Of a DNA stretch of 64,000 nt, positions 6,175-18,604 are shown in pieces. Below the pieces are notes generated by a model. It saw nothing but the letters and a program-made list of their open reading frames with translations. It had not been told where the DNA came from and did not search any database. Source of the stretch: Advenella alkanexedens (GTDB lineage Bacteria; Pseudomonadota; Gammaproteobacteria; Burkholderiales; Burkholderiaceae_B). The position numbers and the translations under genes are program-made. The stretch spans positions 1-64,000 of the forward strand of contig NZ_JAHSPR010000011.1 in assembly GCF_019132845.1 (NCBI RefSeq), given 5' to 3'. The number at the start of each line of letters is the position of its first letter. Position 1 is the first letter of the stretch.

Positions 6175-6326
6175 TATATGAAATGCATTTTTGTCTGATT
6201 CAGGCATAAAATCAGGATCACATTGAATAATTCACCATGAAAATATCAACACAAAACCAAAATGATGCACATTCACCACAAAAAAGACCCACAAATTGCT
6301 TTTCAGTTGTTTTTTTGACAAAGGGC

Positions 6327-6356
6327 TTTACAACAATCGAAAACATGGTGTAATAT
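6327..6356 (+). promoter_or_regulatory. promoter of tRNA-Phe
   Basis: -35 TTTACA (6327-6332), an 18-base spacer and -10 TAATAT (6351-6356), ending 13 bases before the mature tRNA. Confidence 0.6.
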
Positions 6357-6369
6357 TTAAATCTTTCAC

Positions 6370-6445
6370 GGCCAGGTAGCTCAGTCGGTAGAGCAGAGGA
6401 TTGAAAATCCTTGTGTCGGCAGTTCGATTCTGCCCCAGGCCACCA
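6370..6445 (+). tRNA. tRNA-Phe (GAA), with an acceptor-stem A-A mismatch
   Basis: A 76-base cloverleaf with an encoded CCA end: 7-base acceptor arm, D arm GCTC/GAGC, anticodon loop TTGAAAA with anticodon GAA, variable loop GTGTC and T arm GGCAG/CTGCC with TTCGATT. All stems pair except acceptor position 5:68, where A faces A (5' arm GGCCAGG, 3' arm CCAGGCC). The anticodon stem also has one G-U pair at 27:43. Confidence 0.95.
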
Positions 6446-6454
6446 GAAATTCCT

Positions 6455-6486
6455 AAAAACGCCAACTTGTACGAGTTGGCGTTTTT
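6455..6486 (+). terminator. rho-independent terminator after tRNA-Phe
   Basis: A 13-bp inverted repeat (6455-6467 and 6474-6486) with a 6-base loop. The right arm ends in five T residues. Confidence 0.85.
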
Positions 6487-6596
6487 GTTTTGTGCTCCGC
6501 GATTGACAACCAGCCCAGCAATATGCACCACAAACCTCAAAGCAAGATTCTGGAACAACGCGGATTAGTCTACATTTTCATAAACAACCTTACCGC

Positions 6597-7412
6597 ATGT
6601 TTGACACAGAACGCATAGAACAGCTGGCCCGTGAACTGAACCAGTCAAAAAACACGCGCACTCCGCTTGCACAATTCACCCAACGCTACCCCGATATAAG
6701 CCTTGAAGATGGCTATAAAATCAGTCGGGCCTGGATCGCCATACAGCAGGCGGAAGGCAGGTCTGTCATTGGCCATAAAATCGGTTTAACCTCACGTGCC
6801 ATGCAAATTGCCATGCAAATTTCAGAGCCCGACTATGGCACTTTACTGGACGATATGCTGTATACCTGCACGCCTGGACAGACACTGGATATCCCGCTTG
6901 ACCGTTTCATTGCACCACGTGTAGAAGTTGAACTGGCCTTTGTCCTGAAATCTCCCCTGCAAGGCTCCAACAGCACGCTTGAACAGGTGCTGGCGGCAAC
7001 TGAATATGTAACACCAGCGGTTGAAATCATTGATTTCAGAATTACGCAAGTAGACCCTGAGACCGGTTCAACCAGCAAAGTATTTGACACCATCAGCGAC
7101 AACGCCGCCAATGCCGGCATTATTATTGGCGCTGAAAAAATAGCCCCGGAAAAACTGGACCTACCCTGGTGCGGTGCCATTCTCAGCCAGAATGGTGTGG
7201 TGGAAGAAACCGGACTGGCTGCCGGTGTACAGGGTCATCCTGCCATTGGGGTCGCCTGGCTGGCAAACAAACTGGCACCATGGGGTGAAACCCTGCAACC
7301 CGGGCAAATTGTGCTGGCTGGCTCATTTACCCGCCCTGTTGCCGCCAAGGTGGGCGATGTTTTCAAGGCCGATTACGGCCCCATGGGTCAACTGAATTTT
7401 CGTTTTGTTTAA
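6597..7412 (+). CDS. hpaH: 2-oxo-hept-4-ene-1,7-dioate hydratase (HpaH family)
   Basis: Likely adds water to 2-oxohept-4-ene-1,7-dioate to give 4-hydroxy-2-oxoheptane-1,7-dioate in homoprotocatechuate (4-hydroxyphenylacetate) meta-cleavage. The 271-residue protein fits the HpaH/MhpD fold. Three glutamates at 110, 112 and 143 keep the E-x-E...E spacing of the metal site in MhpD (106, 108, 139). IGHKIGLTS (58-66) is typical of the family. hpaI follows after 9 bases, which favours HpaH over MhpD. No good ribosome site is visible. The upper pathway genes (hpaBCDEFG) are not in the window. Confidence 0.85.
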
Positions 7413-11843: not shown

Positions 11844-12227
11844 CTACTGTTTAATCACATGCCAGACATTCAAGGCCTCATCCCCCATCATGTCGCCCTG
11901 TTTCATATCTTTTTTATACAGGTACAAAGGTTGCCCCCTGTAAGCCCATTGCTTGCTGCCATCATCCCGCATAATAATGCTGTAATCCCCTTCAGCACTA
12001 CCATCCTCGGCCACCGGCAGCGGAGGCCAATTTTCGGCACATTGGTCATTACATACACTTTTACCAGGCATATCCCTGTCTTTATCATACGTATATAAAG
12101 TCATACCCTCGGCATTGACCAACACACCATCCATTGCTTTTACCGGAGGGCCTGCCGCACGGGCACTTTCACTGGCGAATCCACAACCCAAACTGGCCAA
12201 TGCCAGCATAAGTAATAGCTTTCTCAT
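11844..12227 (-). CDS. secreted COG4315-type protein with YxxxxD repeats
   Basis: A 127-residue exported protein of the family often labelled predicted lipoprotein with a conserved Yx(FWY)xxD motif. Here this appears as LYTYDKDRD and LYLYKKD, with the family's CNDQCAENWPP segment between them. The N-terminus is a signal peptide. It could be cut at ARA|AG (after residue 24), or lipidated at the cysteine in SLGC, although that lipobox is poor. The ATG at 12227 has AGGGAGG upstream. No function is established for the family. Confidence 0.75.
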   Translation of the reverse strand: MRKLLLMLALASLGCGFASESARAAGPPVKAMDGVLVNAEGMTLYTYDKDRDMPGKSVCNDQCAENWPPLPVAEDGSAEGDYSIIMRDDGSKQWAYRGQPLYLYKKDMKQGDMMGDEALNVWHVIKQ

Positions 12228-12432
12228 TTTTACCTCCCTAATTGTTAAGAACACACAGGAGAAACTGGCCTGTATTGCTACCGGCCAGTTCTTACAGGAT
12301 ACACCTAAACTATTGAAAACAAATAACTATTTTAATAAAATACATTACTTTTTATTTCTGGTTTGTCACCCTGCAGGCAGGCAGTGAGTTCACTCCCACG
12401 TGGAAGTGAGAGACGAAAGAACATGGAAGCGG

Positions 12433-12561: not shown

Positions 12562-13344
12562 TTATTTCACATATTTGCGGAATTCAGGCTTGCGTTTCTC
12601 ACGGAAAGCGTTACCACCCTCTTTGGATTCATCCGTGTCGTAATACATTTTCAGGGCGTGCATGGACAGTGAGGACATGGCACGGATCATTTCGCTGTCC
12701 ACATTGAATGAGCGTTTTGCCAAAGCAATGGCTGTAGGACTTTTCTCATTGATTTCATCACACCATTTCTGCACTTCTTCGTCCAGTTGATCGTGTGGTA
12801 CCACGGCATTGACCAGCCCCATTGCCAATGCTTCCTGGGCAGTATAACGGCGGCACAAATACCATATTTCACGGGCTCTTTTCTCTCCGACCACACGTGC
12901 CAGGTAAGCCGTGCCAAAACCGGGATCAACCGAACCCACTTTAGGACCCACCTGACCCAACTGGGCCTTGTCAGAAGCAATCGCCAGGTCACATACCGTC
13001 ACCAAGACGTTACCGCCACCGACTGCAAAACCGTTAACACGGGCAATCACAGGTTTATTGATATCGCGGATAACGCTTTGCAACTCTTCTACCGGCAGAC
13101 CGATCACACCACGACCACCGTAATCACCATCTTTGCCAGATTGGTCACCACCGGTACAAAATGCCTTGTCGCCGGCACCTGTCAATACAACCACACCTAC
13201 GCTTTTATCCACTTCAGCACGCTTAAAGGCATCAATCAATTCTTCGCAGGTTTGCGCATCAAACGCGTTATAAACTTCAGGCCGGTTAATGGTGATACGT
13301 GCTGTGCCATTATTGACTTCGTACAAAACTTTTTCATATAACAT
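12562..13344 (-). CDS. badI: 2-ketocyclohexanecarboxyl-CoA hydrolase BadI
   Basis: BadI opens the ring of 2-ketocyclohexane-1-carboxyl-CoA hydrolytically to give pimelyl-CoA, the last step of the alicyclic branch. The 260-residue length equals that recalled for Rhodopseudomonas palustris BadI. Shared crotonase-fold features are FCTGGDQS (62-69), the GGGN oxyanion segment (109-112), QVGPKVGSVDPGFGTA (131-146), REIWYLCRRY and a C-terminal EKRKPEFRKYVK. The SVDPG aspartate resembles that of the related MenB. It lies 51 bases after badH in the same direction. Duplicated terminators follow. Confidence 0.9.
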   Translation of the reverse strand: MLYEKVLYEVNNGTARITINRPEVYNAFDAQTCEELIDAFKRAEVDKSVGVVVLTGAGDKAFCTGGDQSGKDGDYGGRGVIGLPVEELQSVIRDINKPVIARVNGFAVGGGNVLVTVCDLAIASDKAQLGQVGPKVGSVDPGFGTAYLARVVGEKRAREIWYLCRRYTAQEALAMGLVNAVVPHDQLDEEVQKWCDEINEKSPTAIALAKRSFNVDSEMIRAMSSLSMHALKMYYDTDESKEGGNAFREKRKPEFRKYVK

Positions 13345-13395
13345 GATGAATCTCTCTTCCAGAATAATTTGTTTTAACTTAAATCAAATAAGATT

Positions 13396-14163
13396 TTAAC
13401 CAACCATGGTCAGCCCACCAGACACACTAATCACCTGTCCGGTAATAAAAGAGGCCTCGTCGCTGGCCAGGAAAGCCACGGCACCCGCCAAGTCTTCGGG
13501 TTGACCAAGACGGCCAAAAGGAATGGCACGGGTCAAGCCATTGCGCAACTTTTCACCATACTCGCCTTCACCGCAGAAATCACGGAACAAAGGCGTATCG
13601 GTTGGGCCGGGGCACACCACGTTAACGTTGATCTGTTTTCTGGCCAGTTCACGGGCAATGGTTTTGGAGAAAGCGATTAAACCGCCTTTACACATGGCAT
13701 AAACGGATTCGCCACTGGAACCGACGCGGGCTGCATCAGAGGCAATATTTACCACACGACCCTTGCCACGCTCTGACATGCCTTTGAGTACCGCATGGTG
13801 CATGTACAATACACCAAAGAAGTTGATGTCGACAATTTTTTCCCATAGCTCCTTATTGGTATCCAGGAAATTGCCGGCCCGGTCCCAGCCTGCGTTGTTA
13901 ACCAACACATCAATGGGCCCCAGCGTGCTTTCAATGTTGTTCACGCACTCAATGACTGATTCCTGATTGGTCAGGTCTACCAGGAAGGTTTGCGCGAAAC
14001 CACCCGCTGCCTTGATTTTTTCTACGGTTTTATCGCCGGCTTCCTGATTGATATCAACCACAGCCACCTTGGCACCCGCCTGACCAAACCGCTCGCAAAT
14101 AGCGCTGCCAATACCGCCGCCGCCACCGGTCACCAATACAACTTTATCTTTTAATCCAAACAT
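13396..14163 (-). CDS. badH: 2-hydroxycyclohexanecarboxyl-CoA dehydrogenase BadH
   Basis: A short-chain dehydrogenase that oxidises 2-hydroxycyclohexane-1-carboxyl-CoA to the 2-keto compound with NAD+. In 255 residues it shows the nucleotide-binding TGGGGGIGS (12-20), NNAG (89-92), catalytic Ser142 in NIASDAARVGSSGE, and Tyr155 and Lys159 in the YxxxK motif. The SDAARVGSSGE stretch and the ending ITGQVISVSGGLTM closely resemble R. palustris BadH as recalled, which together with badI next door supports the specific call over a generic SDR. It is divergent from badR, with 61 bases between the starts. Confidence 0.87.
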   Translation of the reverse strand: MFGLKDKVVLVTGGGGGIGSAICERFGQAGAKVAVVDINQEAGDKTVEKIKAAGGFAQTFLVDLTNQESVIECVNNIESTLGPIDVLVNNAGWDRAGNFLDTNKELWEKIVDINFFGVLYMHHAVLKGMSERGKGRVVNIASDAARVGSSGESVYAMCKGGLIAFSKTIARELARKQINVNVVCPGPTDTPLFRDFCGEGEYGEKLRNGLTRAIPFGRLGQPEDLAGAVAFLASDEASFITGQVISVSGGLTMVG

Positions 14164-14224
14164 TGTGTTTCTCCACTAAAATAAGTCTATACGCGTAATG
14201 AACCCATTCTTCACTTAAATAACC

Positions 14225-14695
14225 ATGACTACTTCCGATCAAGACAAAGAAGCAGCAATCTATGAAATCAATAACCGGCTTTTTTTCCGATTTTTCCAGG
14301 CTGCCAACACCCTTCACACCAAAGGCACCCAGGCACTGGAAGAATTTGGCATAACCACCCAGCAATGGTCGGTACTGGGCGCCCTATCCAGACCCAAGGC
14401 GGAAAACGGCATGAGCGTGAACGAACTGTCGCGCTACCTGCTGATTACCCGCCAAAACCTGACCGGCCTGCTTGGCCGTCTTGAGCGTGATGGCTATATC
14501 GTCCGCACACCCAGTACCGAAGACCGCCGATCCATCAGGGTTTCCTTAAGCCCCAAAGGAAAAGAGCTCTGGAAAAACCTGGCTGAGCCTATTCATCAGT
14601 TTTATGACCTTGCACTGAAGAACATTTCCTTTGATGACCGCCTGGCCCTTATCCATTACATCAACACCTTGCAGCAAAACATGTCTAAAATTTAA
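14225..14695 (+). CDS. badR: MarR-family regulator, probable BadR
   Basis: A 156-residue winged-helix regulator of the MarR type. The wHTH spans about residues 45-115, with recognition-helix sequence LLITRQNLTGLLGRLERDG and the wing STEDRRSIRVSLSPKG. Its position between badH and aliB inside the alicyclic cluster matches BadR, which represses such genes and is released by a CoA-thioester intermediate in R. palustris. By inference it controls the divergent aliB-aliA promoters, where palindromes are present. It ends 3 bases before the convergent aliB stop. The ribosome site is weak. Confidence 0.8.
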   Translation: MTTSDQDKEAAIYEINNRLFFRFFQAANTLHTKGTQALEEFGITTQQWSVLGALSRPKAENGMSVNELSRYLLITRQNLTGLLGRLERDGYIVRTPSTEDRRSIRVSLSPKGKELWKNLAEPIHQFYDLALKNISFDDRLALIHYINTLQQNMSKI

Positions 14696-14698
14696 GCT

Positions 14699-15847
14699 TT
14701 AACTTAATTTAAGGCCTGTTTTTGTACGGGCAATAATCATTTTCATGATTTGCGCGGTACCATCACCAATTTGCAGGCCAAGCACATCCCTTAAGCGCTG
14801 CTCATAAGGGTAGTCTTTGGCATAACCACCGTGTCCATGGAACAGCAGACACTGGTAAATAATGTCATAAGACAGTTTTGGTCCCCACCATTTACACATG
14901 GCCGCCTGTGAGGTATGGGGCAAATCCTTGTCTTTCAGCCAGAGCGTTTCAAGGCAAACCAAGCGGGCCGCCTGATAATAGGTTTCATATTCAGCCAATG
15001 GAAAACTGACCCCCTGGTTTTCCACGATGGGTTTGCCAAAAGTTTCACGCTCTTTGGCATATTCCCAGGTTTCATCCAAAGAGGCACGCGCCACGGCAAG
15101 ACACTGCAGCCCGATTAAAGCCCGGCTATAGTCAAAACCCTGCATGACCTGGGTAAAACCTTTGTCTTCTTCACCCAGCATATGGCTGGCCGGCACCTTG
15201 ACCCCATCAAAGAATATTGAACCCCGCCCCACGCAACGTGTACCCAGATCATCAAAGGCGGTACGGGTAATACCGGGCAAATCCATGGGTACCAAAAATG
15301 CGCTAATGCCTTTGGCACCTTTGACACCACTGTTGGTACGGGCAAAAACCACGGCAACATCAGCCTGGTCAGCCAGTGAAATGGAGGTTTTTTCACCGGT
15401 CAGAACATAATGATCGCCCTCTTTGACCGCTTTCAATTGCAATGCTGCAGCGTCTGAACCGGCTGAGGGCTCAGTCAGTGCAATCGCAATCAGTTTTTCT
15501 CCGGCAATGATTTTTGGCAACCATTCCTGTTTAAGCGATTCGCTGGCAAAACGATTGACGATTTGACCACATAAGGACACCAGCAAGCTGACATATGCCA
15601 TGTTGAAATCCGAAGCGGAAAGCTGCTCAAGCAACAGACCGCTGGTGACGCAGTCCATTCCCATGCCACCATAAGCTTCGGGCATTTCCACGCCCAGTAA
15701 GCCCAACTCACCCATCTGGCGCACGATGTCCCGCTCAAGGCGTCCTGTTTTATCGCGATGCTGATAACCGGGTGCCAGCACCTCGCGTGCAAACCTGCCT
15801 GCACTTTCCACCAATACCCGCTGATCTTCTGTAATTGAAAATTCCAT
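14699..15847 (-). CDS. aliB: cyclohexanecarboxyl-CoA dehydrogenase AliB
   Basis: An acyl-CoA dehydrogenase that should oxidise cyclohexanecarboxyl-CoA to cyclohex-1-ene-1-carboxyl-CoA with FAD. At 382 residues it has the three-domain ACAD layout: the N-terminal helices, the ALTEPSAGSDAA flavin/substrate strand (about 147-158), FDYSRALIGLQ, and the C-terminal helices. Where most ACADs have the catalytic glutamate before GT (EGT), this protein has aspartate, Asp362 in GDGTAQ. Location among aliA, badK, badH and badI fixes the substrate class. BadJ-type dehydrogenase is a synonym in some strains. It is transcribed away from aliA. Confidence 0.85.
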   Translation of the reverse strand: MEFSITEDQRVLVESAGRFAREVLAPGYQHRDKTGRLERDIVRQMGELGLLGVEMPEAYGGMGMDCVTSGLLLEQLSASDFNMAYVSLLVSLCGQIVNRFASESLKQEWLPKIIAGEKLIAIALTEPSAGSDAAALQLKAVKEGDHYVLTGEKTSISLADQADVAVVFARTNSGVKGAKGISAFLVPMDLPGITRTAFDDLGTRCVGRGSIFFDGVKVPASHMLGEEDKGFTQVMQGFDYSRALIGLQCLAVARASLDETWEYAKERETFGKPIVENQGVSFPLAEYETYYQAARLVCLETLWLKDKDLPHTSQAAMCKWWGPKLSYDIIYQCLLFHGHGGYAKDYPYEQRLRDVLGLQIGDGTAQIMKMIIARTKTGLKLS

Positions 15848-15876
15848 ATTGCCTCTTCAACCTGATTAGAATATAT

Positions 15877-15890
15877 GTAAATATATTTAC
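15877..15890. promoter_or_regulatory. perfect palindrome, candidate BadR operator 1
   Basis: GTAAATATATTTAC is a perfect 14-bp palindrome 30 bases upstream of the aliB start. A near copy lies at 16026-16039. The size and symmetry suit a MarR-family dimer. Confidence 0.5.
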
Positions 15891-15915
15891 CCATCTGCCT
15901 ATAATTACATAATCC

Positions 15916-15929
15916 TTGATCGAGTTCAA
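15916..15929. promoter_or_regulatory. FNR/ANR-like site
   Basis: TTGAT-CGAG-TTCAA matches the FNR/ANR consensus TTGAT-N4-ATCAA at nine of ten defined bases. It is midway between aliB and aliA. In R. palustris an FNR-type protein (AadR) takes part in control of aromatic and alicyclic genes, so oxygen control is possible. Confidence 0.35.
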
Positions 15930-16025
15930 CAAAATTTCCTGATTAATGGACAACAAAATCAAAATAAAGGGAAAACACTAGTATTTTAATTGTGCTCAAT
16001 GAGGAAGAATAACAAAAAATATTAT

Positions 16026-16039
16026 GGAAATATGTTTAC
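16026..16039. promoter_or_regulatory. imperfect palindrome, candidate BadR operator 2
   Basis: GGAAATATGTTTAC differs from operator 1 at two of 14 positions. It lies about 100 bases upstream of the aliA start. Confidence 0.45.
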
Positions 16040-16139
16040 CTATATGCCTGCAGGGATATCCACGAATCCATGCATAAATAAGGTAATCCATCCATCAAGC
16101 ATCAAATTCTTTCATCCACTATTACACAAGAGACAGATC

Positions 16140-17774
16140 ATGAAATTTGACACATCCCTGATTGATGCACGCAAAGAAAAAATGACAACAAACGGCTTCT
16201 GGAAAAACAGGACTATCGAGGATTTCTTCAGCCAGGCAATGCAAACGCATCCGGATAAAACTGCCGTTGTTACCTATAAGGTCGATGGTGAAAACAGCTC
16301 CCCCGTACGCCTTTCCTATCGTCAACTCAATGAGCGTATTGACACCATTGCCAAATCCCTTATCCGCCTGGGCATTCAACGCTCCGATGTAGTCAGTTTC
16401 CAGATTCCCAACAGCTGGGAGTTTATTGCCTTATCCCTGGCATGCGCCCGGATTGGTGCGGTGGCGAACCCCTTGATGCCCATTTTCCGTGACCGGGAAT
16501 TAAGCTATATGCTGAAATTTCTCGAATCCAAGGTCTTCATTGTCCCGTCCGTATTCAAGAACTTCAACTATGAAGAAATGGCCAACGGACTACTACAAAA
16601 AATAGACACCCTGCAACATATTGTGGTCGTAGGCGGTAAAGGCGAAAACAGTTTTGACAAACTCCTGCTGACGGACACCTCTTCCGAACCCCTTGTCCCC
16701 GATCCGGTCAAACCAAACGATATTCTTCTGCTGATGTTCACATCGGGCACCACCGGTGAACCCAAAGCGGTCATGCATACGTCCAACACGCTGTTTGCCG
16801 CCCTTGACGGTTTCGTGGATACCCTTGAACTGAAAGACAGTGAAATTATCCTGGGTGCCTCTCCCATGGCACACCTTACCGGTTACGGTTATCTGGCCAT
16901 GCTGCCTATCATGCTTAATTCAACCACGGTTGTCATGGATAGCTGGGAACCCAATATCGCCCTGCAAATCATTAAAGACGAAGCAGTCACGTTCAGCATG
17001 GCTTCCAGCCCCTTTGTACAGGACATGTGCAATGCCACTGAAAAGGGAGCCCCCCGTTCTCCGCAATTTACCAAATTCTGCTGCGCAGGCGCGCCCATTC
17101 CGCCCATTGTGATAGAGCGTGCCCATAAAATCATGAACCTCACGGTATGTTCTGCCTGGGGCATGACCGAAAACGGCGCCATCACCATTACCCCCCCTTC
17201 AAAGGCACTGGAAAAATCCAGCATCAGCGATGGCAAGGCCATTGCCTGCACCGAACTGAAAATAGTTGACGGTAATGACAATGAATTGCCACAAGGCGAA
17301 ACAGGACGCCTGCTGGTCAGAGGTGCTTCCCAATGTGTGGGTTATTACAAAAAACCCGAACTCAATGCACTGACCGAAGACGACTGGTTTGATTCAGGTG
17401 ACCTTGCCTTCATGGACCCGGAGGGCTATATCCGCATCAATGGCCGCAGCAAAGATATCGTTATTCGCGGTGCAGAAAACATTCCCGTGGTTGAAATTGA
17501 AAACCTGCTTTACCAGCATCCTGCCATTGCCACCGTTGCCATTGTTGGCTTCCCTGATGAACGGCTGGGTGAACGGGCATGCGCCTTTGTAACGCTTAAC
17601 GAAGGTGCCAGCTTCTCTTTTGAGGAAATGATCCGATACCTGAAAGAGAAAAAAGTGGCCCAGCAATACTTCCCCGAAAAGCTGGAAATAAGGGGCGATT
17701 TACCCAGAACACCCAGCGGCAAACTGCAAAAATTCATGCTGCGCGAGGAAGCCAAAACTTTCCAGATTGATTAA
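16140..17774 (+). CDS. aliA: cyclohexanecarboxylate-CoA ligase AliA
   Basis: An AMP-forming acyl-CoA ligase predicted to activate cyclohexanecarboxylate with ATP and CoA, the entry step of the cluster. The 544 residues carry the P-loop TSGTTGEPK (201-209), the adenylation motif WGMTE, SGDLAF, GRSKDIVIRG and the catalytic lysine Lys528 in PRTPSGK. This last motif fits the PX4GK pattern of ligases controlled by lysine acetylation in R. palustris. The frame begins upstream at 15990, but the ATG at 16140 fits the family N-terminus and has a purine-rich AAGAGA site. badK follows after 26 bases. Confidence 0.87.
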   Translation: MKFDTSLIDARKEKMTTNGFWKNRTIEDFFSQAMQTHPDKTAVVTYKVDGENSSPVRLSYRQLNERIDTIAKSLIRLGIQRSDVVSFQIPNSWEFIALSLACARIGAVANPLMPIFRDRELSYMLKFLESKVFIVPSVFKNFNYEEMANGLLQKIDTLQHIVVVGGKGENSFDKLLLTDTSSEPLVPDPVKPNDILLLMFTSGTTGEPKAVMHTSNTLFAALDGFVDTLELKDSEIILGASPMAHLTGYGYLAMLPIMLNSTTVVMDSWEPNIALQIIKDEAVTFSMASSPFVQDMCNATEKGAPRSPQFTKFCCAGAPIPPIVIERAHKIMNLTVCSAWGMTENGAITITPPSKALEKSSISDGKAIACTELKIVDGNDNELPQGETGRLLVRGASQCVGYYKKPELNALTEDDWFDSGDLAFMDPEGYIRINGRSKDIVIRGAENIPVVEIENLLYQHPAIATVAIVGFPDERLGERACAFVTLNEGASFSFEEMIRYLKEKKVAQQYFPEKLEIRGDLPRTPSGKLQKFMLREEAKTFQID

Positions 17775-17800
17775 TCCAGCCAATAGGTGGAACCACAAAC

Positions 17801-18574
17801 ATGAATACAGCAGTACTTAAAGAAATCGTGGGCCAGGTCGGCATACTGACCATCAATCGCCCGGATGCCATGAATGCCCTTAATGATGATGTCATGAACG
17901 GCCTGACCCTGGGTCTGGATGAGTTCGAGCAAAATGATGCCATTCATTGTGTGATTATTACCGGTTCGGAAAAAGTGTTTGCCGCCGGAGCCGATATTGC
18001 CGCAATGCGCAACTACGAATACATTGATGTGTATCGTGACAACTTCATTACCCGCAACTGGGAGCGCCTGAAAACTTTCCGCAAGCCTACCATTGCCGCT
18101 GTTTCAGGCTATGCGTTGGGGGGTGGCTGCGAAGTGGCCATGATGTGCGATATGGTGTTTGCAGCAGACAATGCCAAGTTCTCACAACCCGAAGTCAGGA
18201 TCGCCACCTTGCCGGGGGCCGGTGCCACCCAGCGTCTGCCCCGCTCTGTCGGTAAAGCGGTAGCCATGGATCTATGCTTTACCGGTCGCATGCTTACCGC
18301 CGCCGAGGCCCTGCAGTTTGGCCTGGTATCGCGCGTGTATCCCAAAGCGGAACTCATGCACGAAACACTTGAACAGGCACAAGCCATCGCAGCGTATTCC
18401 CTGCCTGTTCTCATGATGATGAAAGAATCCCTGAACCGGGCTTTTGAAACACCCTTGAACGAAGGGCTCGCCTTTGAGCGAAAAATGCTTTATGCTACTT
18501 TTGCACTGGAAGATCGCAAAGAAGGCATGAATGCCTTTATTGAAAAACGACCGGCCAATTTCAATAATCGTTAA
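17801..18574 (+). CDS. badK: cyclohex-1-ene-1-carboxyl-CoA hydratase BadK
   Basis: A 257-residue crotonase-fold hydratase expected to convert cyclohex-1-ene-1-carboxyl-CoA to 2-hydroxycyclohexane-1-carboxyl-CoA. The two catalytic glutamates of enoyl-CoA hydratases are present as Glu111 (GGGCEVAM) and Glu131 (SQPEVRIATLPGAG), exactly 20 residues apart as in the family. AAGADIAAM (61-69) forms part of the CoA pocket. The sequence alone would allow a general enoyl-CoA hydratase; the neighbours make BadK the better reading. It ends the aliA-badK unit at a strong terminator. Confidence 0.83.
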   Translation: MNTAVLKEIVGQVGILTINRPDAMNALNDDVMNGLTLGLDEFEQNDAIHCVIITGSEKVFAAGADIAAMRNYEYIDVYRDNFITRNWERLKTFRKPTIAAVSGYALGGGCEVAMMCDMVFAADNAKFSQPEVRIATLPGAGATQRLPRSVGKAVAMDLCFTGRMLTAAEALQFGLVSRVYPKAELMHETLEQAQAIAAYSLPVLMMMKESLNRAFETPLNEGLAFERKMLYATFALEDRKEGMNAFIEKRPANFNNR

Positions 18575-18575
18575 C

Positions 18576-18604
18576 AAAAAAAACGGACCAGGTCCGTTTT
18601 TTTT
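18576..18604 (+). terminator. terminator after badK
   Basis: A perfect 14-bp inverted repeat (18576-18589 and 18591-18604) around a single A. The right arm ends in eight T residues and the left begins with eight A residues. Confidence 0.92.

Follow-up and report, generated by a model that had tools for sequence, protein, structure and literature searches.

The stretch of DNA analysed here (the window, 64,000 nucleotides, contig C2:1-64000 of an Advenella genome, G000, of 2.99 Mb and 99.5% completeness) very probably carries the full set of bad-ali genes, arranged as in Aromatoleum, for the conversion of cyclohexanecarboxylate (CHC) to pimelyl-CoA, together with the regulator BadR and palindromes that are its predicted operators. 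The region 12562-18574 holds six open reading frames, all intact, namely badI, badH, badR, aliB, aliA and badK (Table 1). The enzyme genes are split between two units that diverge from each other, aliA-badK and aliB-badH-badI; badR lies within the latter, on the other strand. As the pathway of Aromatoleum sp. CIB has already been published (Sanz and Diaz, 2022; PMC9795900), the Advenella enzyme cluster adds one more example to a kind already known, and the additions made here on the operator, on a second operon and on badK are predictions.

Table 1. Features of the bad-ali cluster and of the predicted second operon (window positions unless a contig or locus is named)
Feature	Position	Strand	Basis or remark
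badI, 2-ketocyclohexanecarboxyl-CoA hydrolase (ring opening)	12562..13344	-	TIGR03210
badH, 2-hydroxycyclohexanecarboxyl-CoA dehydrogenase (SDR)	13396..14163	-	TIGR03206
badR, MarR-family regulator	14225..14695	+	Pfam MarR_2; within the aliB-badH-badI unit, opposite strand
aliB, cyclohexanecarboxyl-CoA dehydrogenase	14699..15847	-	TIGR03207
Predicted BadR operator GTAAATATATTTAC	15877..15890	no strand	29 bp from the aliB start codon
Predicted BadR operator GGAAATATGTTTAC	16026..16039	no strand	100 bp from the aliA start codon
aliA, cyclohexanecarboxylate-CoA ligase	16140..17774	+	TIGR03208
badK, cyclohex-1-ene-1-carboxyl-CoA hydratase (crotonase)	17801..18574	+	PF00378, PRK05862; 66% and 63% identity to badK of G209 and GS19
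Terminator-like hairpin with A/T tails, 3' of badK	18576..18604	+	From sequence; also present beside the badK remnant in G044 and G048
Substrate-binding protein (SBP) gene	G000:C15:299114-300364 = L202:7115-8365		
Two MaoC-type genes (MaoC-N, MaoC)	L202:6653-7099 and 6225-6656		After SBP: 15-bp spacing, then 4-bp overlap

Enzymes, pathway and substrate

The first-pass annotation had proposed that AliA, AliB, BadK, BadH and BadI are all encoded with a MarR regulator in mid-cluster, and all five enzyme types and the regulator were found. BadI (489.3 bits, cut-off 467.6) and AliB (637.7 bits, cut-off 575.35) exceed the curated cut-offs of their NCBIfam models, whereas BadH (420.4 bits, cut-off 431.2) and AliA (769.6 bits, cut-off 792.3) fall slightly below, yet are clearly the best matches of the whole genome, in which the runners-up are an SDR with 159.7 bits and a ligase with 221.8 bits. 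Near-miss scores recur in the nearest syntenic clusters (G209 BadH 430.1 and AliA 786.5; GS19 BadH 422.8). Taken together, the narrow misses, the distant runners-up and the same misses in syntenic clusters point to a divergent branch and not to wrong genes. In G165 and G166, which belong to another bad-ali lineage of the same family, BadH and AliA exceed both cut-offs. The window BadI is 99% identical to that of Advenella faeciporci KCTC 23732 and 96% to that of A. mandrilli, and its closest solved structures are MenB-type synthases. For AliA, the best start is the ATG at 16140, while the longest open reading frame opens at a TTG at 15990; the query used in the NCBIfam comparison (and P0006) starts one codon 5' of the ATG.

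BadK is a crotonase whose top NCBIfam match, the PRK05862 enoyl-CoA hydratase model, reaches 375.3 bits, below the cut-off of 396, and no BadK-named model is among the best 25 of its 73 NCBIfam matches. It shares 66% identity with the aliA-adjacent badK of G209 and 63% with the badK of GS19, the two nearest clusters. The active site of rat hydratase carries a Glu; the Asp of BadK was considered as an oddity and rejected, being common to nearly all badK rows (L158 and L159 were uninformative). The MarR genes of 74 other bad loci encode proteins with 37-99% identity to BadR, and a class-wide search of 369 genomes at E <= 1e-25, a cut-off that is probably too strict for distant BadRs, gave a match in its own genome only.

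By homology, AliA would convert CHC to cyclohexanecarboxyl-CoA, AliB would oxidise the latter to the 1-ene, BadK would hydrate the 1-ene, BadH would oxidise the resulting alcohol and BadI would open the ring to give pimelyl-CoA. BadR, again from its homologues, is a putative MarR repressor that would be released by a CoA-thioester intermediate. From pimelyl-CoA, the way to central metabolism probably leads through a pimFCD-like beta-oxidation cluster elsewhere in the genome (G000:C11, about 441-448 kb). The whole-genome search for pim genes found there a PcaF thiolase, a FadB-type protein, a pimC-like (504.7 bits) and a pimD-like (355.8 bits) dehydrogenase and, judged from sequence starts, CoA-transferase-like genes; C15 carries another pimC-like gene (454.0 bits). 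These genes are the likely route for pimelyl-CoA, although the scores of all three dehydrogenases are well below the cut-offs. Membership of this lower pathway in the predicted BadR regulon was rejected, as the genome-wide search placed no 14-mer near the pim-like cluster.

The first-pass annotation had seen no benzoyl-CoA reductase genes, and their absence holds genome-wide for BcrAD/BadFG: the profile PF01869 (BcrAD_BadFG) has no match in the whole genome and matches in 10 of 14 control genomes. In Aromatoleum sp. CIB, where the CHC pathway works with and without oxygen, a badHI deletion abolishes growth on CHC under both conditions and leaves growth on benzoate intact (PMC9795900). The five enzyme types, the lack of BcrAD/BadFG and this deletion support a pathway that is independent of benzoyl-CoA reduction. 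The surprise implied earlier, that a betaproteobacterium should run the pathway alone, is not new, having been demonstrated in strain CIB; the pathway is described as widespread (PMC9795900).

The cluster could serve mainly other alicyclic acids, such as alkylated cyclohexanecarboxylates, cyclohexyl-alkanoates or monoterpene-derived acids, with CHC as one of several substrates, which we regard as possible but doubtful. Copies of badKHI have been proposed to act in monoterpene degradation (PMC9795900), C. gilardii CR3 grows on 4-methyl-CHC with aliA and isoenzymes for the remaining steps predicted (PMC4547698), and a second acyl-CoA ligase adjoins the predicted second BadR operon. Against this, no sequence feature indicates a substituted substrate, and the full aliAB set and the gene order match the CIB cluster, which is proven on CHC (PMC9795900).

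Predicted BadR operator and second operon

The BadR operator of strain CIB is CAAN4TTG, the first two bases of which were found essential by base changes in the site, and such operators are described in most Gram-negatives (PMC9795900). No match to CAAN4TTG is present in the aliB-aliA gap of the window (15848-16139), where BadR would instead hold both divergent promoters through predicted 14-bp palindromes of the GTMAAYRTRTTKAC type. The site GTAAATATATTTAC at aliB is identical in all three Advenella genomes that have this gap, representing three species. Both palindrome places are retained in G044 (A. faeciporci) and G048 (A. mandrilli), in which the counterparts of GGAAATATGTTTAC are GCAAATATATTTAC and GCAAATATGTTTAC, with one or two bases differing. 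In the related cluster of G209 the site towards aliA reads GACAATATATTGTC and that towards aliB GTCAATATATTTAC, and GS19 has GTCAATCTATTGAC; these forms bridge the published CAAN4TTG and the Advenella palindrome. A sigma-70 scan gave matches no more often than shuffled sequences.

L037 and L038 duplicate L117 and L118 and were therefore omitted when operators and tree rows were counted. Of the 99 loci compared, 20 contain GTAAATATATTTAC with at most one mismatch, 27 copies in all, and none contains any of 20 shuffled palindromes. The form GTMAAYRTRTTKAC (at most one mismatch) lies beside a cluster gene in all 13 ali-bearing clusters read in the family and in none of eight badI loci without ali genes. 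Intergenic CAAN4TTG is missing from 16 of 75 BadR loci. A consensus, GWMAAYRYRTTKWC, matches exactly in 45 of the 75 (30 shuffles: mean 0.6, highest 11), a count that is partly circular since the consensus was derived from these same sites; 21 of the 75 show no match even at one mismatch. The natural sites suggest that A may be allowed at the first base of the operator if the other half carries the matching T. If this wider operator is real, bad-ali regulons could be found in genomes without CAAN4TTG.

The identical 14-mer also occurs in five alphaproteobacterial bad loci. In L066, L076, L093 and L101 the exact GTAAATATATTTAC stands near 7030-7125, and in L066 it precedes a gene resembling an acyl-CoA dehydrogenase. 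In the recognition helix of BadR the three Advenella have ITRQ, whereas 68 of 75 BadR loci have VSRQ. A change of this helix as the cause of the changed operator was rejected, because VSRQ loci (L058, L066, L076, L093, L101) carry the identical 14-mer and LTRQ loci (L043, L065) retain CAA-type sites.

A genome-wide search with GNAAATATNTTTAC found four places in G000, three in G044 and three in G048, and the reversed control pattern one, none and none. Besides the bad-ali gap, one place is common to the three genomes, 16 bp before the start of an SBP gene that is followed by two MaoC-type genes; the fourth place in G000, C11:120685, has no counterpart in the other two. The same BadR may thus control this second operon (G000:C15:298.2-300.4 kb; substrate-binding protein, MaoC-N, MaoC). 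The exact 14-mer precedes the SBP gene in all four genomes with an SBP orthologue (G000, G044, G048, G052). In G000, G044 and G048 exact copies stand at aliB and at SBP and nowhere else, and in the fragmentary G052 at SBP alone; the recovered contigs of G052 lack the bad-ali gap and carry the ligase, parts of SBP and a MaoC stretch. A 25-column footprint around the 14-mer, TTATAAGTAAATATATTTACATAAA, is invariant in the four genomes, although identity to G052 over the whole aligned region is no more than 61-65%.

Orthologues of this SBP are present in four of ten genomes of the genus; matches in the other six reach at most 51% identity. The family is a frequent one, with 4-10 members per genome in 15 genomes, and among the 30 loci of SBP matches read for sites, none of the 27 paralogous loci has a 14-mer site at up to one mismatch. 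As the genomes that have the second operon appear to form one clade, its presence together with bad-ali may go back to one event; the strong evidence lies in the conserved site. Upstream of SBP, in the same direction, lies an acyl-CoA ligase gene, and in G000, G044 and G048 a terminator-like hairpin stands between the two; on the AliA model this ligase ranks second in the genome (L202:6225-10183 region, 221.8 bits). No permease gene was recognised beside SBP from ORF starts. Three badH-badI loci (L081, L113, L130) lie beside a ligase that is 47-50% identical to this one and is not called AliA, hinting at a different entry substrate there.

The palindrome might instead belong to another regulator, with the SBP-MaoC operon unrelated to BadR, which we consider unlikely. 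The palindrome lacks the CAAN4TTG core that is essential by the mutational data on CIB BadR (PMC9795900). Furthermore, among 18 bad-linked SBPs elsewhere, none has the palindrome (at most one mismatch) within 400 bp and two (L061, L078) have CAAN4TTG within 150 bp upstream. However, no regulator other than BadR was recognised in the cluster, and the ORF starts beside the SBP operon revealed none, the G209 sites have bridging forms, the five alphaproteobacterial bad loci carry the identical 14-mer, and 12 of the 16 BadR loci without intergenic CAAN4TTG have the wider palindrome at up to one mismatch. As a general partner of bad-ali the SBP was rejected: an SBP 42-47% identical to P0007 is present in 18 of 101 long loci, but these are the 18 of which only two have CAAN4TTG and none the palindrome, and the family is common, so that the support is weak. 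If BadR does control the second operon, the SBP would be a candidate uptake protein for the pathway. The words transport, uptake and periplasmic are absent from PMC9795900, and the portions of the literature that were accessible name no uptake protein or MaoC gene under BadR.

Loss of badK and origin of the cluster

The DNA corresponding to window 17778-18454, after aliA, is missing from G044 (L117) and G048 (L118), which retain the last ~120 bp of badK and the following hairpin, with slightly more bases in G048. In these two named species a linear pathway has naturally lost the gene for one of its enzymes and retained the others. In both, the sole BadK match at E <= 1e-60 is a 56% paralogue; this crotonase paralogue (52-56%) is conserved in all ten genomes of the genus. 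In G052 badK is intact beside aliA and 88% identical, and badK presence is therefore probably ancestral. By badI and badH distances G000 groups with G044. Informative sites, given as G000+G044 : G000+G048 : G044+G048, are 30:9:9 in the 5' half of aliA, 19:14:16 in its 3' half and 9:10:7 in the next gene, so that G000+G044 is favoured in the first and not in the other two. The deletion junctions of G044 and G048 share sequence that is absent from the window. The mixed signal in the flanks suggests recombination, and a single badK loss combined with it would be the simplest account, short of proof.

The loss could mean that the pathway is decaying in the clade and the cluster is on its way out, and a recent loss of badK would leave no trace in dN/dS yet. 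Against G044 and G048, however, dN/dS is 0.008-0.044 for badI, badH, badR and aliB (0.008-0.083 with aliA included), and for badK against G052 it is 0.080, which makes decay quite improbable. Since the other genes are strongly constrained, badK must have been lost very recently or its step must be served by a different hydratase. For the latter, the candidates would be either the crotonase paralogue or the MaoC pair of the predicted regulon. The MaoC fold is unrelated to that of the crotonase BadK. A tentative and rather improbable proposal joins these observations: BadR would control a two-locus regulon (bad-ali and SBP with the MaoC pair) through the broader 14-bp operator, and MaoC would hydrate cyclohex-1-ene-1-carboxyl-CoA and make BadK dispensable, hence the badK deletion with the rest under selection in A. 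faeciporci and A. mandrilli. The deletion also bears on ring hydration in the many Burkholderiales clusters reported without badK (PMC9795900).

BadI at E <= 1e-100, a threshold that may miss divergent badI, was found in 27 of 268 family genomes, and above the model cut-off in 20. There were 28 family BadI places, and the long regions of 20 and the window were read, leaving out G002, G008, G023, G094, G233, G247 and G257. A BadI tree of 60 of 99 rows, hand-thinned and built by a quick method, unites Advenella with Rhodocyclaceae GS19, G209 and Paraburkholderia/Trinickia (SH-aLRT 97) and separates it from the remaining ali-bearing BadIs read in its own family (SH-aLRT 100). That other family clade includes the lone badI of G046, from the same genus as the window; no other bad or ali gene was recognised within about 10 kb of it (L119). 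The full gene order of the window recurs in G209, and in GS19 the relative arrangement of badK, aliB, badR, badH and badI matches that of the window, although the stretch examined yielded no aliA call. Two cluster lineages within one family suggest horizontal transfer of the bad-ali cluster, which could have occurred in either direction. A plasmid origin was rejected: 37 plasmid records hold BadI relatives (E <= 1e-80), the best of the 15 listed being 75.3% identical, so that no near source is apparent. MaoC-N relatives on plasmids reach at most 46% identity among the 15 listed.

Comparison with known systems

The accessible literature on Advenella and cyclohexane contains no tie of this genus to cyclohexanecarboxylate. 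The other bad-ali lineage of the same family (G040, G036, G033, G117, G165 and others) shares the pathway genes and the type of palindrome, but differs in a separate BadI clade and in the order badH-badI-aliB-aliA. Its badR is divergent, or further away in G116 and G117, the only clusters read in this lineage in which badK is adjacent. Downstream of badI in the window (11844-12230) is a gene for a small secreted-repeat (Lipoprotein_15) protein, at the place where Aromatoleum has aabA.

In R. palustris the genes form a single operon, badHI-aliBA-badK, that is joined to benzoate degradation (PMC9795900). The five enzymes and a MarR-type BadR are common to both organisms, whereas Advenella has two divergent units and a genome without BcrAD/BadFG. 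Published Burkholderiales clusters are described as differently arranged and mostly without badK (PMC9795900); Advenella, a member of the Burkholderiales, has the Rhodocyclales-type order with badK. In Aromatoleum sp. CIB, the published arrangement places badR, on the opposite strand, within aliB-badH-badI, from which aliA-badK diverges (Sanz and Diaz, 2022; PMC9795900). The Advenella cluster differs from it in having no aabA, or any aab gene, beside badI, in carrying GTAAATATATTTAC in the gap in place of CAAN4TTG, and in its predicted second operon of SBP and two MaoC genes. It agrees with that of strain CIB in the same six genes, their order and orientations, in the position of badR, and in a pathway that would need no benzoyl-CoA reduction.
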